Shown piece after piece: positions 9,544 to 14,978 of a stretch of DNA of 40,073 bases. The number at the start of each line of letters is the position of its first letter. The stretch's first letter is position 1. Below the pieces are notes generated by a model. That model was not told where the DNA came from. It made no database searches and saw nothing but the letters and a program-made list of their open reading frames with translations. Made by a program: the position numbers and the translations under genes. The DNA comes from Candidatus Buchananbacteria bacterium (lineage in GTDB: Bacteria > Patescibacteriota > Patescibacteriia > Buchananbacterales > UBA6539): NCBI GenBank assembly GCA_016930315.1, contig JAFGGX010000001.1, positions 1-40,073 on the forward strand, in the 5' to 3' direction.

Positions 9544-9774
9544 ATGCAAAGTAAAGAAATTCAAATTAAAATTATTCCTCGAGCAAAAAAAATTGAAGTG
9601 ATTGAATTTACGCCAAATAGTTTTAAGATTCGGTTAACCGCCGCGCCGGTTGATGGTAAAGCTAACGATCAATTACTAAAAATATTAGCTAAACACTTTA
9701 AAATTGCTAAGTCGTGCTTAGTGATTACTAAGGGCTTGACAAGCCGGAATAAAACTGTTAACATTCTATGTTAG
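9544..9774 (+). CDS. DUF167/YggU-family protein
   Basis: IKIIPRAKK, FKIRLTAAPVDGKANDQLLKILAKHF, SCLVITKGLTSRNKTVNI. Confidence 0.9.
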   Translation: MQSKEIQIKIIPRAKKIEVIEFTPNSFKIRLTAAPVDGKANDQLLKILAKHFKIAKSCLVITKGLTSRNKTVNILC

Positions 9775-9860: not shown

Positions 9861-9889
9861 TTGACAAAAAAATCAAAGTGTGCTATAGT
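9861..9889 (+). promoter_or_regulatory. Sigma70-type promoter for ncRNA
   Basis: TTGACA-17 nt-TATAGT. Confidence 0.8.
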
Positions 9890-9895
9890 GCTTAG

Positions 9896-10249
9896 TTATG
9901 TTGTTTGAAAATCGAATAGTATATTTTTCTTCCAAGAATCTGCAGACTGCCCTAAACGGGTTAAAGTCTCTCCTATGGGACGTGCTTACTGTGCCACCAG
10001 GAGGGTGCTTTCGTTGCCTGTGGGTCTTTGGATAGCAAGTAATTTGTACCTTTCAACGACAAACCTCCTTTCACTTGCTATCCGATGATCTGCAGGCACG
10101 ACAAGTACGGGGTTTACTTCTTGGAAAATCCGGTTTCGACTCGATTTTTCCTAGAAGCAAACTTCTTGTCTGCAGAGCCTTGGGTGAAAAACAACCCAAA
10201 GATATAACTCAAGAGCTGTCCCGCTTTTTTAGCGGGGCAGTTTTTTGTT
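9896..10249 (+). ncRNA. Structured non-coding RNA of about 350 nt, class not identified
   Basis: Strong promoter upstream, intrinsic terminator CTGTCCCGCTTTTTTAGCGGGGCAGTTTTTT at the end, no long ORF, many complementary segments including GGATAGCAAGT/ACTTGCTATCC, TTCCAAGAA/TTCTTGGAA and TTGGGT/ACCCAA. Confidence 0.7.
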
Positions 10250-10250
10250 T

Positions 10251-12107
10251 TTAATTTACTATCTCGTTAGTGGTAGTACTGGTCGGTTCAATTGGCGGTA
10301 CGGCATTAGGGTCAATCCCTACTAACCAAGTTTCTTTCCAAGCAACGTAATGACTGGTGAATTCTTTTTCTTTAACTTCGCCATCTGGATAAGTAACTTT
10401 GTAATCAAATTTGGCGTCGGCTCCATTGTGAGCATGTTCAACTATTTTTTTCTCGCCGGGGGCAAGTTGATCGGTTTCAATGTAGCGTGGTTCACCGGGT
10501 TTAGTAATATTGTAAACAATAGGGTCGGAAATTTCAACCTGTCGATTATCTTTTGTGCCATAAAGATCAAAAGTTAAAATGTCACCATCAATATGAGTGA
10601 TAAATAAAAGATAATGACCGGTGTCGTTTACAAATTTAAAATCCGGAGCCGGATCGTAAATGGTTGCGTCCATGCCAACCGGCGGTTCGTAATAACTAAC
10701 CCGATAGGAATGGTTTTGTCTGGCGGTAATTGGCAAACCAGAATAAAGGGCGGCGCGAAAAGCGGTGGTGCCAATTTGGCAAAGACCGCCGCCGTATTCG
10801 GGGATAGTGCGGTCGCCTTTAATTACCAGTTCTTGCAGATAGCCATGTTCACCGTCAATTTCACCTAAAGTTTTTAGCAACGAAAATTCTTCATCCGGCG
10901 CAATTAAAGTTCCGTTAACCGCGGCCGCACCGACTACAATATTTACGCGGCGGTTTTTTGGACTGCCGGCAAAATTGGAACTGCCGCTGCCGACCAAATC
11001 TTTGATGCCTAAATCATTTACGTTTTCGGTGGTGACTTTCGCCGGAGTAGATTCAACCACCAATTCAACATCATCGTTTGTACCTAAAACAATGGCCTGG
11101 TTGATCCTTAAATAACTATTTTCTAAATCAAGTTTTTTGCCGTCTTGGCTGGCTTGGAATTCCGTGACTTTATTATTGGTCAATTTAAACTTAGCGTCAG
11201 TGGCTTGAATGTCAATTGTTTCACTGATTGGTTTAAGGAATTCCAGCACTTTTTCTTTATTTAAGCCAATAGAAACTTGGCCGTGGTCTTTTTGAAACTC
11301 CAGCCAAGGCACAAATTGAGGTTGGTTTAATTTCCAAAAAAGATCGCCGTTGGTTAGTTTAATTGAATCAATGGCTAGAATTTTTGGTAAATTATTTAAA
11401 GCCATCGCTGTGTCTTGTTTTTTGACCGTTGGCACGGTGGTGATTAAATCCAAAGTGATTGGGTCAAAATTTAATTGGTTGATTTGGGCTTTAAATTTGT
11501 CGATTGTTTTTTGATAATTAAAACCAAAGCCAGTTTGTTCCTCGGTGATTAAATAATTTTTGCCATTGATAACCAAGCCAGCATTTTTAGCCGGTTGTTC
11601 ATATTGATCAAAAGTCGTTTTTAAATTATCAATTAAATTATTTTCGTCGAGTTGATAATTGACGTTAACCACTCTGGTTTTTAATAAACCGTTCAGTTGG
11701 TTAAAAATATTTTGCCACCAGCTTTGATTGCGGCCGATTGAATAAGCTTGGTCGACAGTTTTTGACCAGTCAAAAGTTAAAACCGTTTTGGCTAAGTCTG
11801 GATCGTTGATTGCTACAACAATTGGATGAACGGTAAGAGTTTTACCGTCGTAAATAAATTGTGAACCTTTGTCTTGAATATTTTTTTCGATATTTTTGAG
11901 TTGAGTCAAAACCTCAGCTTTAGTTTGCGACCCAACATCCAAGTAGCCAATTTTTACGCCGGGAAAAATTCGTTGATCATAACTTTTTTGGTAAGCAATG
12001 TCGGCCCCGACTAAAAGTAAAATGATAATTAAAAAAATGGTCGGCAAAATCAACCATTTCTTTTGGCGCTCAACGGCGTTTGGTTTTTGTTTGTCTAGCT
12101 TAAACAT
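10251..12107 (-). CDS. VanW family protein with N-terminal TM helix
   Basis: C-terminal RRVNIVVGAAAVNGTLIAPDEEFSL...PEYGGGLCQIGTTAFRAAL...NHSYRVSYYEPPVGMDATIYDPAPDFKFVNDTG. Confidence 0.92.
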   Translation of the reverse strand: MFKLDKQKPNAVERQKKWLILPTIFLIIILLLVGADIAYQKSYDQRIFPGVKIGYLDVGSQTKAEVLTQLKNIEKNIQDKGSQFIYDGKTLTVHPIVVAINDPDLAKTVLTFDWSKTVDQAYSIGRNQSWWQNIFNQLNGLLKTRVVNVNYQLDENNLIDNLKTTFDQYEQPAKNAGLVINGKNYLITEEQTGFGFNYQKTIDKFKAQINQLNFDPITLDLITTVPTVKKQDTAMALNNLPKILAIDSIKLTNGDLFWKLNQPQFVPWLEFQKDHGQVSIGLNKEKVLEFLKPISETIDIQATDAKFKLTNNKVTEFQASQDGKKLDLENSYLRINQAIVLGTNDDVELVVESTPAKVTTENVNDLGIKDLVGSGSSNFAGSPKNRRVNIVVGAAAVNGTLIAPDEEFSLLKTLGEIDGEHGYLQELVIKGDRTIPEYGGGLCQIGTTAFRAALYSGLPITARQNHSYRVSYYEPPVGMDATIYDPAPDFKFVNDTGHYLLFITHIDGDILTFDLYGTKDNRQVEISDPIVYNITKPGEPRYIETDQLAPGEKKIVEHAHNGADAKFDYKVTYPDGEVKEKEFTSHYVAWKETWLVGIDPNAVPPIEPTSTTTNEIVN

Positions 12108-12704: not shown

Positions 12705-14978
12705 ATGATTAAAAGAATTATCACATATTCAATAATTTTACTGTTTTTAGCCAGTTTATTGGCTATTCCTTTGAATTCTGTCTCCGCGATTGAATCTTTA
12801 AGAATCCAAAATATTAGCGTTGTTACTACTGATACCAGCGCTACTATTAGTTGGCAAACCAACAAAAAGGCTGACGGCCGGATTGATTATGGTCCAAATA
12901 CCGGTAGTTATCCTTATCGTTTGGATACCAACAAAAAGACCGACAATCAATCAATCACTATTTATGGTTTAACTCCGGAAACCAGATACTTTTTTAAAGT
13001 GACTTCTAGAGATGAATTCACTGAAGTGTATTCTTACGAACAAAATTTTAAAACTATTAAAGCCGTTGACACTACTGTGCCGGTTATTAGTCATGTAGTG
13101 GCTATTTATGTAACCGGTACTACTGCTACCATTCAATGGGTAACCAATGAACCATCAACCACTGAGGTTGAATATGGTAAAACAGAAAGGTATGGTTCCC
13201 GAGCGGTTGATGGCCGGTTAGTAACTGTCCATGATATTACTATCAAAGGTTTAGGTGAAGCGACTGCCTATCAGTTTAGGGTTGCTTCAAAAGATAAAGA
13301 TAACAATGCCGCTCGTTGGTATAATATGTCTTTTAGAACTAACGATACCAATCTTACCGATAAAGGTGCATTAACTATCTATGACGTTAAGCCAAGTTCA
13401 GAAAATGATCCGGACTTAACTCAAACCAGCGCGGTAGTGAGTTGGAGAACCAACAAATTAGCTAGCGGTAAAGTTTATTATGGCACTAGCCAAAATAATT
13501 TAAACAAATCAATTAGTCTATTGCCGCCAAGAGATTTTGTGGGTAGTTTAGGCTTAACCAATTTAGCGGCTGATACGGTTTATTATTATCGAATTGAAGC
13601 CACCGATGTTTTTGGTCGGACGGTAAAATCCGAAGGCCATTCGTTCAGAACTAAAAGTGGCTACAACACCGTTGATGTGACAACTGACAGCGGTCAAGTT
13701 TTAGGCGCTTCAACCCAAGGCCTGATTGTCTATTTACCTTTTGACGAAGGCAAGGGCAGTTTGGCTGAAGATATGTCGTATAATGGCAACGATGGTTATT
13801 TAGATCCAACTAATCCACCAGCCTGGGCAACCGGTAAGTTTGCCACTGCTTTAAATTTTTCTGGTAATAAACAAAACGTTTCTGTGCCAGACAATGACGA
13901 AATTAGTTTACGTGATCAAGTTAGTATGATGGCTTGGGTGAATTTAAACGGTTTTGGTAGTTACAATAAAATTATTACCAAAGAAGACTCCTACGAAATT
14001 TTACTTGGGCCAAATGATGGTGTGTTAAGAATGGCTATTTATTCTCAAGGTGCTTCTGATTGGCAATGGTTAAATACTCCAACCAAACCTTTAGTCAAAG
14101 GTCAGTGGCAGTTAGTAGCCGCTACTTATGATGGTAAAGTGATGAAACTTTACGTTAACGGCCGCGTGGTTGCCCAACGTCAGTATGCAGCTTTAATCAA
14201 CGACACTTCTTACCCAATGTATATTGGTGGTAACGTGGTTGATAACAAAGAGTGGTTTAATGGTTTAATTGATGATGCGGCTGTGTTTAATTATGCTTTG
14301 AGTGAAGCAGAAATTCAAAATGTTTATCAAAGCGGTGTGGCTGATTATTTAGATTCAGTTGGCATCCCAACTCAGAATTCTTCTCCGGTTGGCGGCCAGG
14401 TTTTGGGTGTTACTTATGTTGAACCTCAGTCAAAATATGTTTGTAACCCAAACTTAGGTTATGTTAAGTTTACCGCTTTGTATAAAACCGCTGACAGTCC
14501 AGACGTTTGGGCCATTACCGAAAATAATCAAAGACACTACATCACCAGCCCAGATTCATTTAACCAGTATGAATGTAGCTGGAGTCGGGTGAAGTTGGTT
14601 TCGAATGAAACTTTAAACAGTTACCCAATTGCTTCTTTAGTGAAGGGTTTAGATAACTCAGTTGTTTATCATTTGTTTCAACGACCACAGCAAAAATGGT
14701 TGAAATTGGCTATTCCTTCACCAACCGTGTTTATTAGTTACGAAAATAATTTTTGGGGCAATATTATCCGAATTAATGATTATGATCTGAATTCATATCC
14801 AGATGCTAAATTGATTAAGACAGCTGATAATTCAAACATCTATTTGTTAGAAGGCAATACCAAAAGATTGATTCCAAACCAGGCAGTTTTTGATGCTTAT
14901 GGTTTTAGTCAGCCAGAAGTAGTTACTATCAACCAAATTCACATGGATAGTTATACAACTGGTCAGCCATTGCAATAA
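12705..14978 (+). CDS. Secreted surface protein: three FN3-like domains, LamG/concanavalin-A-like domain, C-terminal repeat region
   Basis: Signal peptide MIKRIITYSIILLFLASLLAIPLNSVSA; repeated TSATISWxTNxxxxGxxxYG...TxYFFKV; LAEDMSYNGNDGYL...VAATYDGKVMKLYVNGRVV...FNGLIDDAAVFNYALSEAEI. Confidence 0.9.
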   Translation: MIKRIITYSIILLFLASLLAIPLNSVSAIESLRIQNISVVTTDTSATISWQTNKKADGRIDYGPNTGSYPYRLDTNKKTDNQSITIYGLTPETRYFFKVTSRDEFTEVYSYEQNFKTIKAVDTTVPVISHVVAIYVTGTTATIQWVTNEPSTTEVEYGKTERYGSRAVDGRLVTVHDITIKGLGEATAYQFRVASKDKDNNAARWYNMSFRTNDTNLTDKGALTIYDVKPSSENDPDLTQTSAVVSWRTNKLASGKVYYGTSQNNLNKSISLLPPRDFVGSLGLTNLAADTVYYYRIEATDVFGRTVKSEGHSFRTKSGYNTVDVTTDSGQVLGASTQGLIVYLPFDEGKGSLAEDMSYNGNDGYLDPTNPPAWATGKFATALNFSGNKQNVSVPDNDEISLRDQVSMMAWVNLNGFGSYNKIITKEDSYEILLGPNDGVLRMAIYSQGASDWQWLNTPTKPLVKGQWQLVAATYDGKVMKLYVNGRVVAQRQYAALINDTSYPMYIGGNVVDNKEWFNGLIDDAAVFNYALSEAEIQNVYQSGVADYLDSVGIPTQNSSPVGGQVLGVTYVEPQSKYVCNPNLGYVKFTALYKTADSPDVWAITENNQRHYITSPDSFNQYECSWSRVKLVSNETLNSYPIASLVKGLDNSVVYHLFQRPQQKWLKLAIPSPTVFISYENNFWGNIIRINDYDLNSYPDAKLIKTADNSNIYLLEGNTKRLIPNQAVFDAYGFSQPEVVTINQIHMDSYTTGQPLQ

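Follow-up and report, generated by a model that had tools for sequence, protein, structure and literature searches.

A predicted structured RNA with a conserved bulged hairpin core in Candidatus Buchananbacteria and most genomes of its class

The window (the whole 40,073-nt stretch of Candidatus Buchananbacteria DNA that was analysed) carries, between two protein-coding genes, a strongly structured segment with transcription signals of its own (Table 1). Its promoter is composed of a −35 element TTGACA (9861-9866) and a −10 element TATAGT (9884-9889) separated by a 17-nt spacer, matching the sigma-70-type consensus at 11 of 12 positions, and the exact 5′ end of the RNA is deduced from the position of this promoter. 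At the opposite end, a stem of 15 pairs (10211-10245) is followed by a run of T's, and no ORF of 60 or more amino acids was found within 9861-10249. The minimum free energy of the RNA (9898-10246) is −145.5 kcal mol−1, against −90.1±5.0 kcal mol−1 in 100 shuffles (z=−11.1). A first-pass annotation had described a near-consensus promoter, a clean terminator, the lack of any long ORF and an RNA about 350 nt long, highly structured and of a class not recognised; all four descriptions held, the last also because the RNA is without an Rfam family and its homologues covary strongly. Judged from these sequence signals, the segment holds as an independent transcription unit for a real, strongly structured, non-coding RNA.

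Table 1. Features of the RNA locus and its flanking genes, in window coordinates.
Feature	Position	Strand	Basis or remark
DUF167 (YggU family) gene, upstream neighbour	9544-9774	+	Pfam PF02594, 2.3e-21
Promoter TTGACA-17-TATAGT	9861-9889	+	11/12 consensus match; predicted transcription start ~9896
Non-coding RNA, long (type I) form, ~350 nt	9896-10250	+	Fold z=−11.1; same-family relatives
P1, 5′ strand UCUGCAGAC (outer part CCAAG, 9932-9936)	9939-9947	+	Partner 10168-10176
Small hairpin A, GCCC...GGGU	9949-9961	+	Predicted fold
Hairpin B, CUCUCC/GGAGGG stem enclosing UGUGCC motif	9967-10005	+	Motif conservation
P2, 5′ strand UUGCCUGUGGGUC	10014-10026	+	Partner 10087-10099
P3 stem GGAUAGCAAGU/ACUUGCUAUCC and loop	10028-10083	+	Compensatory changes in 8/11 pairs
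Conserved loop segments UUUGUACCUUU (10043-10053) and ACCUCCUUUC (10063-10072)	10043-10072	+	Conservation in long forms
Core hairpin, unit conserved class-wide, 86 nt	10090-10175	+	Covariance model R1, 85.8 bits
One-sided 10-nt bulge, CGACAAGUAC here, consensus CGACAAGCAU	10099-10108	+	Proposed recognition site
Apical stem with G.U pair and UUCG loop	10130-10143	+	Near-invariant pairs
Intrinsic terminator	10211-10250	+	15-pair stem and T run; z=−6.3 for 10182-10246
vanW gene, convergent downstream neighbour	10251-12107	-	Pfam VanW, 1.1e-37, and PG_binding_4

The RNA sequence is present once in its host genome (897 kb in 53 contigs). Using blastn, full-length relatives of 70-76% identity were found in five of the six genomes from the same family, and in further families within the order and the class the match was limited to a shorter conserved part of ~90 nt. 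When the window was scanned with the 4,227 families of Rfam 15, a check that the first-pass annotation had proposed, a tRNA was the sole match above the gathering threshold; ten related loci likewise gave no family at that threshold, and the best match of a permissive scan over the RNA was RsaA (24.2 bits versus a cut-off of 50; E=0.094). No description of this RNA was found among freely accessible journal papers. The family thus defined by sequence appears to be new and previously undescribed, and its way of working may prove familiar.

Alignment of 34 copies of the conserved part gave a core consensus in which a lower stem of 9 bp is followed by a one-sided 10-nt bulge (CGACAAGCAU, facing about 1 nt). 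The upper stem above it starts with G's opposite U's and continues through an irregular segment into an apical stem of the form GG-Y-UNCG-R-CU. In this alignment, 94.2% of the counted pairs are standard and two-sided changes occur at 16 of the 24 pairs, a score reached by none of 500 shuffles; shifting the partner strand by one column reduces pairing to 50-56%. Across 99 distinct cores, 95.4% of pairs are formed and the covariation score is 0.566 (0.199 in shuffles), in an alignment that was fitted to the model and is thus biased toward it, as the 34-core alignment is not. The covariation of the core is overwhelming, which answers the check on homologues that the first-pass annotation had also suggested. 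A search with a covariance model trained on 34 rows (the window copy and relatives) gave a single match in the window (85.8 bits, E ~6e-20; runner-up 11.5 bits), the window copy being one of the rows.

Variation is distributed unevenly over the core. The lower stem is 98.2% paired over the 99 distinct cores, with double changes at eight of its nine pairs and up to five pair types per position. The bulge contains GACAAG in 90 of the 99 and ACGACAAGCAUGG in 70. Of the 97 sequences readable at the apical stem, 95 keep its G.U pair and all 97 the adjacent G-C pair. A near-fixed bulge beside a freely varying stem looks like a recognition site held in a scaffold.

To model R1, 334 of 381 genomes of the class were matched, including 291 of 319 high-quality ones and representing 262 of 291 genera, nearly always with a single core per genome (two in family f36). 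In a phylum sample of 380 genomes, R1 matched 31 of the 33 class members and, weakly, just four outsiders. A sequence pattern derived from the ~90-nt conserved part identified 19 loci among 84,980 species genomes, all of them in Patescibacteria records (Buchananbacteria, Komeilibacteria and other Parcubacteria) or metagenome bins; from the names of these records, we take the class that carries the core to be GTDB ABY1. At four loci (L094, L098, L111 and L155) the contig ends, or turns to N, at or inside the RNA gene; in genome G073 (L155) the N's begin inside the RNA. Perhaps the hairpin is hard to sequence or assemble, and with contigs broken at the RNA gene some genomes only seem to lack it. 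Family f54, both of whose sampled members are without the core, exemplifies the rare absences from complete genomes. We have very little doubt that the RNA family is real and conserved.

Three architectures were found: (i) the short form, in the majority of the class, with hairpins of ~110-150 nt in which a promoter and a leader of ~20-60 nt precede the core hairpin and the terminator, which often has its stem in common with the core; (ii) the double form of family f36 (for example, L013, L034 and L048), with two cores per RNA and UUUGUCACCUUCCA in between; (iii) the long form, represented by the window, L003-L008, L010-L012 and L014. From the sequence comparison, the 86-nt core is the class-wide conserved unit and the ~350-nt form of the window an elaborate exception.

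In the long form, the core is one element of a junction that also includes P1 as its outer helix, a second helix (P2) and an arm (P3). Covariation supports P1-P3: 90.5% of cells are paired, double changes occur at 18 of 41 pairs and none of 500 shuffles is as good. This result bears on the variable pairs, as invariant positions, namely the inner P1 half and the greater part of P2, lie outside what covariation can support. Compensatory changes were found at all nine outer pairs of P1, its nine inner pairs being invariant, and P2 is paired in 94.7% of cells with few double changes. UGUGCC or GUGC is present in hairpin B of all 11 long forms, and this hairpin folded alone is unexceptional (z=−1.3). 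The two strands that in short forms build the lower core stem could alternatively, in the long form, be paired with P1 and P2.

About half of the helices named in the first-pass annotation were correct. The pairings GGATAGCAAGT/ACTTGCTATCC and TGCCTG/CAGGCA correspond to P3 and P2, respectively, and GGAAAATC/GATTTTTCC lies inside the core. A further pairing, TTGGGT/ACCCAA, is an alternative that competes with P1 at its outer end. Two proposals found no support: for TTCCAAGAA/TTCTTGGAA, the partner of the 5′ CCAAG is instead the CTTGG near 10180, and both halves of the supposed local hairpin GAAGcaaaCTTC are paired to upstream partners within the core. The reported triple occurrence of TCTGCAG (9939-9945, 10089-10095 and 10169-10175) was confirmed, and is explained by its location on three strands of one junction.

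Several long-form loci carry further inverted repeats. In L005 (~1710-1820), the P3 loop holds an insertion of ~115 nt with long inverted ends (CCCGCCCGAATTTTG...CAAAATTCGGGCGGG) that resembles a small mobile hairpin element. L010 has an additional long 5′ hairpin at 1115-1300 (GGGGAATAGCAGG...CCTGCTATTCCCC) and, past the RNA at 1625-1780, a long perfect inverted repeat (AAAACAACCATTTTCTATTTTATAA).

The P3-loop segment ACCUCCUUUC resembles the 3′ end of bacterial 16S rRNA in general. A base-pairing regulator of translation, in which this loop would mimic the 16S rRNA 3′ end and pair with Shine-Dalgarno sequences, or in which the bulge would pair with mRNAs, was thus considered. Consistent with it, CCUCCUUUC or a near variant occupies the same loop in 9 of the 11 long forms amid varying surroundings, and in L010 and L012 the motif comes after a hairpin, as GGAUCCUCCUUUC, just as at the 16S end. 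However, the loop is absent from L008, L011 and the short forms, to which most of the class belongs, and so cannot provide a function common to the family. For the bulge, a search of 76 class genomes for exact 11-mer complements, beyond whose reach lie short, imperfect or G.U pairings, revealed none that is recurrent or universal: extra copies are scattered, and in many genomes (for example, G012, G016, G017, G024, G058, G065, G074, G075 and G079) the only exact complement is the RNA gene itself. Taken together, we regard a base-pairing regulator as unlikely. Two vague resemblances of the bulge were also discarded: that to the complement of 16S helix 34 is at about chance level, with no universal complement, and that to the CsrA consensus misses the required GGA.

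The genomic context was examined at 100 loci, which are distinct cores with double forms counted twice. A convergent vanW gene lies downstream at 64 of them, and the upstream gene is DUF167 at 31, ClpP at 16 and RuvB at 16 (vanW and DUF167 of the window were checked by Pfam; ClpP and RuvB were named from reading their sequence). A promoter matching at least 10 of 12 consensus positions precedes 80 of 98 related loci, versus 7.9% of shuffled upstream sequences, and the nearest downstream ORF is on the opposite strand at 62 of 76 loci. The own promoter, the changing upstream genes and the convergent downstream gene therefore argue for an independent gene that would act in trans. Next to vanW in the window, 12705-14978 (+) encodes a large protein that looks secreted, contains domains of the fibronectin type III and laminin-G-like kinds and is possibly located at the surface.

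This context bears on two further explanations. As a cis element, the segment would serve as a terminator or antisense partner of vanW, or as the 3′ end of the upstream gene; the frequency of the convergent vanW, which recurs outside the class, and the continuation of the core stem into the terminator in several short forms would fit such a role. Yet about one-third of the loci are without an adjoining vanW, the upstream gene is variable and the RNA has its own promoter; moreover, termination needs no invariant bulge, and core and vanW do not overlap. The probability of a cis element is accordingly rated as slight. For a riboswitch or leader, the window offers no same-strand regulated gene, as the downstream vanW is convergent and the RNA is therefore not its riboswitch. 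A metabolite-sensing RNA or a self-cleaving ribozyme could nevertheless account for the invariant internal loop and apical G.U, features that an active site or an aptamer would show as well. At most loci, however, a riboswitch would have no output, as the same-strand downstream gene is missing, and none of the 4,227 Rfam families, known ribozymes included, matches; we give this explanation an equally small chance.

Four genomes outside the class carry a short-bulge variant, in which CAC-CUCGGGG or CAC-CGGGGG replaces CAC-GACAAG-CAUGGGG: the hairpin is retained and the GACAAG half of the bulge is not, so that the recognition sequence differs between parts of the family. Three of the four loci (L110, L112 and L152) have the same convergent vanW within ~50 nt, L112 also with ruvB upstream, and the fourth (L111) sits at a contig end. 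As this synteny is independent of the model, the outside loci were taken as true homologues. In a second model with three of the outsiders in training, the scores of those three rise, and untrained G436 was matched at 1.1e-8. Two other out-of-class matches, in G392 (E=0.04) and G710 (E=0.007), look like chance inside other sequence and were dismissed. A further weak out-of-class match, L113 (G422:C7:11482-11555, -), has a promoter and ruvB upstream and a different stem, and is possibly a more distant relative.

A core with intact bulge and matching stem was also found in two viral contigs (L159, 4210-4306 (+), and L160, 98-2 (-); 44.4 bits, 2.5e-9), which are identical over 4.3 kb and therefore represent one phage lineage. 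This is a double-stranded DNA phage with Erf, a RecE-like exonuclease, ParB and PAPS reductase, and its core is flanked on one side by a hypothetical gene and on the other by a small gene whose product looks like a nuclease from its sequence, with no match in PHROGs. With the whole RNA as query, blastn gave no match in phage records. Among the pattern matches in viral contigs, 49 of the 53 second-scan loci were without a model match and hence due to chance, which indicates that the model is specific; L157 and L158 were likewise matched by the pattern and rejected by the model. The phage copy would make sense as a decoy or as a borrowed use of a host factor.

With no universal exact complement of the bulge in the 76 genomes searched, protein contact, imperfect RNA contact, ligand binding and catalysis therefore remain as its possible roles. 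Conservation of the bulge could equally reflect binding of a small molecule, the core of a ribozyme or a tertiary contact. Protein is favoured because the RNA is a separate, single-copy, near-universal gene with no cis target and because the phage copy keeps the bulge intact. We propose that the RNA would be transcribed from its own strong promoter and act in trans, its helices presenting the one-sided bulge CGACAAGCAU and the G.U-containing apical stem for reading by a dedicated protein, with which it would form a ribonucleoprotein as the stable RNA component. Additions specific to single clades, such as the long three-helix form with its ACCUCCUUUC loop and the two cores of another lineage, would be attachments to this core. 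A trans-acting structured RNA family whose core bulge binds a dedicated protein is a reading that we judge somewhat better than even. From these features we infer a protein partner, the bulge as its contact and an abundant RNA, which probably serves a housekeeping function.

The RNAs retained by almost all members of a bacterial class are very few, namely RNase P RNA, tmRNA, SRP RNA and 6S RNA, and these have central jobs. Patescibacteria are tiny parasitic or symbiotic bacteria (episymbionts) with stripped-down genomes; given such genomes and the reported loss of SRP, an extra near-universal RNA is unexpected. The RNA would thus offer a handle on what took the place of, or was added to, the core machinery that these episymbionts have lost, and its copy in a phage hints at a partner worth hijacking. 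Even on the most cautious view, Rfam lacks a family here with which hundreds of genomes could be annotated.

Among the known class-wide RNAs, RNase P RNA and tmRNA share with the RNA their universality and, for the window form, the length of ~350 nt. Both lie elsewhere in the host genome (G000): the sole RF00010 match is at C6:12438-12867, away from the RNA locus, and RF00023 is matched above cut-off at C23:9128-9520, with ARAGORN finding no tmRNA in the window. 6S RNA has a large two-sided bubble of weakly conserved sequence. The RNA is 6S-like in its strong promoter, near-universality and single copy, and RF00013 has no match in 18 class genomes that have tmRNA and mostly RNase P RNA, so that the place of 6S RNA looks empty; this is a weak test, as the model finds only 5 of 14 control genomes. 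The class-wide form, however, is a ~86-nt hairpin with a one-sided, sequence-conserved bulge, lacking a large two-sided central bubble between helical arms. The 6S-like reading put forward in the first-pass annotation was thus not borne out, and a lineage-specific 6S-type RNA that binds RNA polymerase would be very unlikely.

The minimal form is reminiscent of the bacterial small SRP RNA (4.5S, RF00169) in being a ~110-nt hairpin with one conserved internal loop and in single copy. In the 18 class genomes, neither RF00169 nor RF01854 was matched (0 of 18 each), and the SRP domain IV motif CAGGYCCGGAAGGRAGCAGC was absent at up to three mismatches. This agrees with a published survey in which Parcubacteria are without both ffh and 4.5S RNA (PMC4508563); with Ffh reported absent, there is therefore no obvious partner for a replacement of SRP RNA by this RNA. 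A bolder reading extends the preferred one, that of a protein-binding RNA: it would be a housekeeping ribonucleoprotein RNA dating from the origin of the class or perhaps earlier, placed in a central role left by the loss of SRP and 6S RNA and copied by phage to bind or divert the same host protein. Such a central role could be, for example, the global control of transcription or translation. We put this forward tentatively and consider it possible, albeit rather doubtful.

The closest parallels are the orphan structured RNAs OLE, raiA, ROOL and GOLLD, which are likewise independent, highly structured and phylogenetically restricted RNAs from comparative genomics; of these, OLE works as a ribonucleoprotein (PMC9723947). 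As judged from its sequence signals, the RNA described here belongs in this company, being non-coding, with its own promoter and terminator and a structure that covaries across genera. It differs from them in matching no Rfam family, in its single copy and one-sided 10-nt bulge, in its much smaller common core (86 nt), and in being near-universal in its class rather than patchy.
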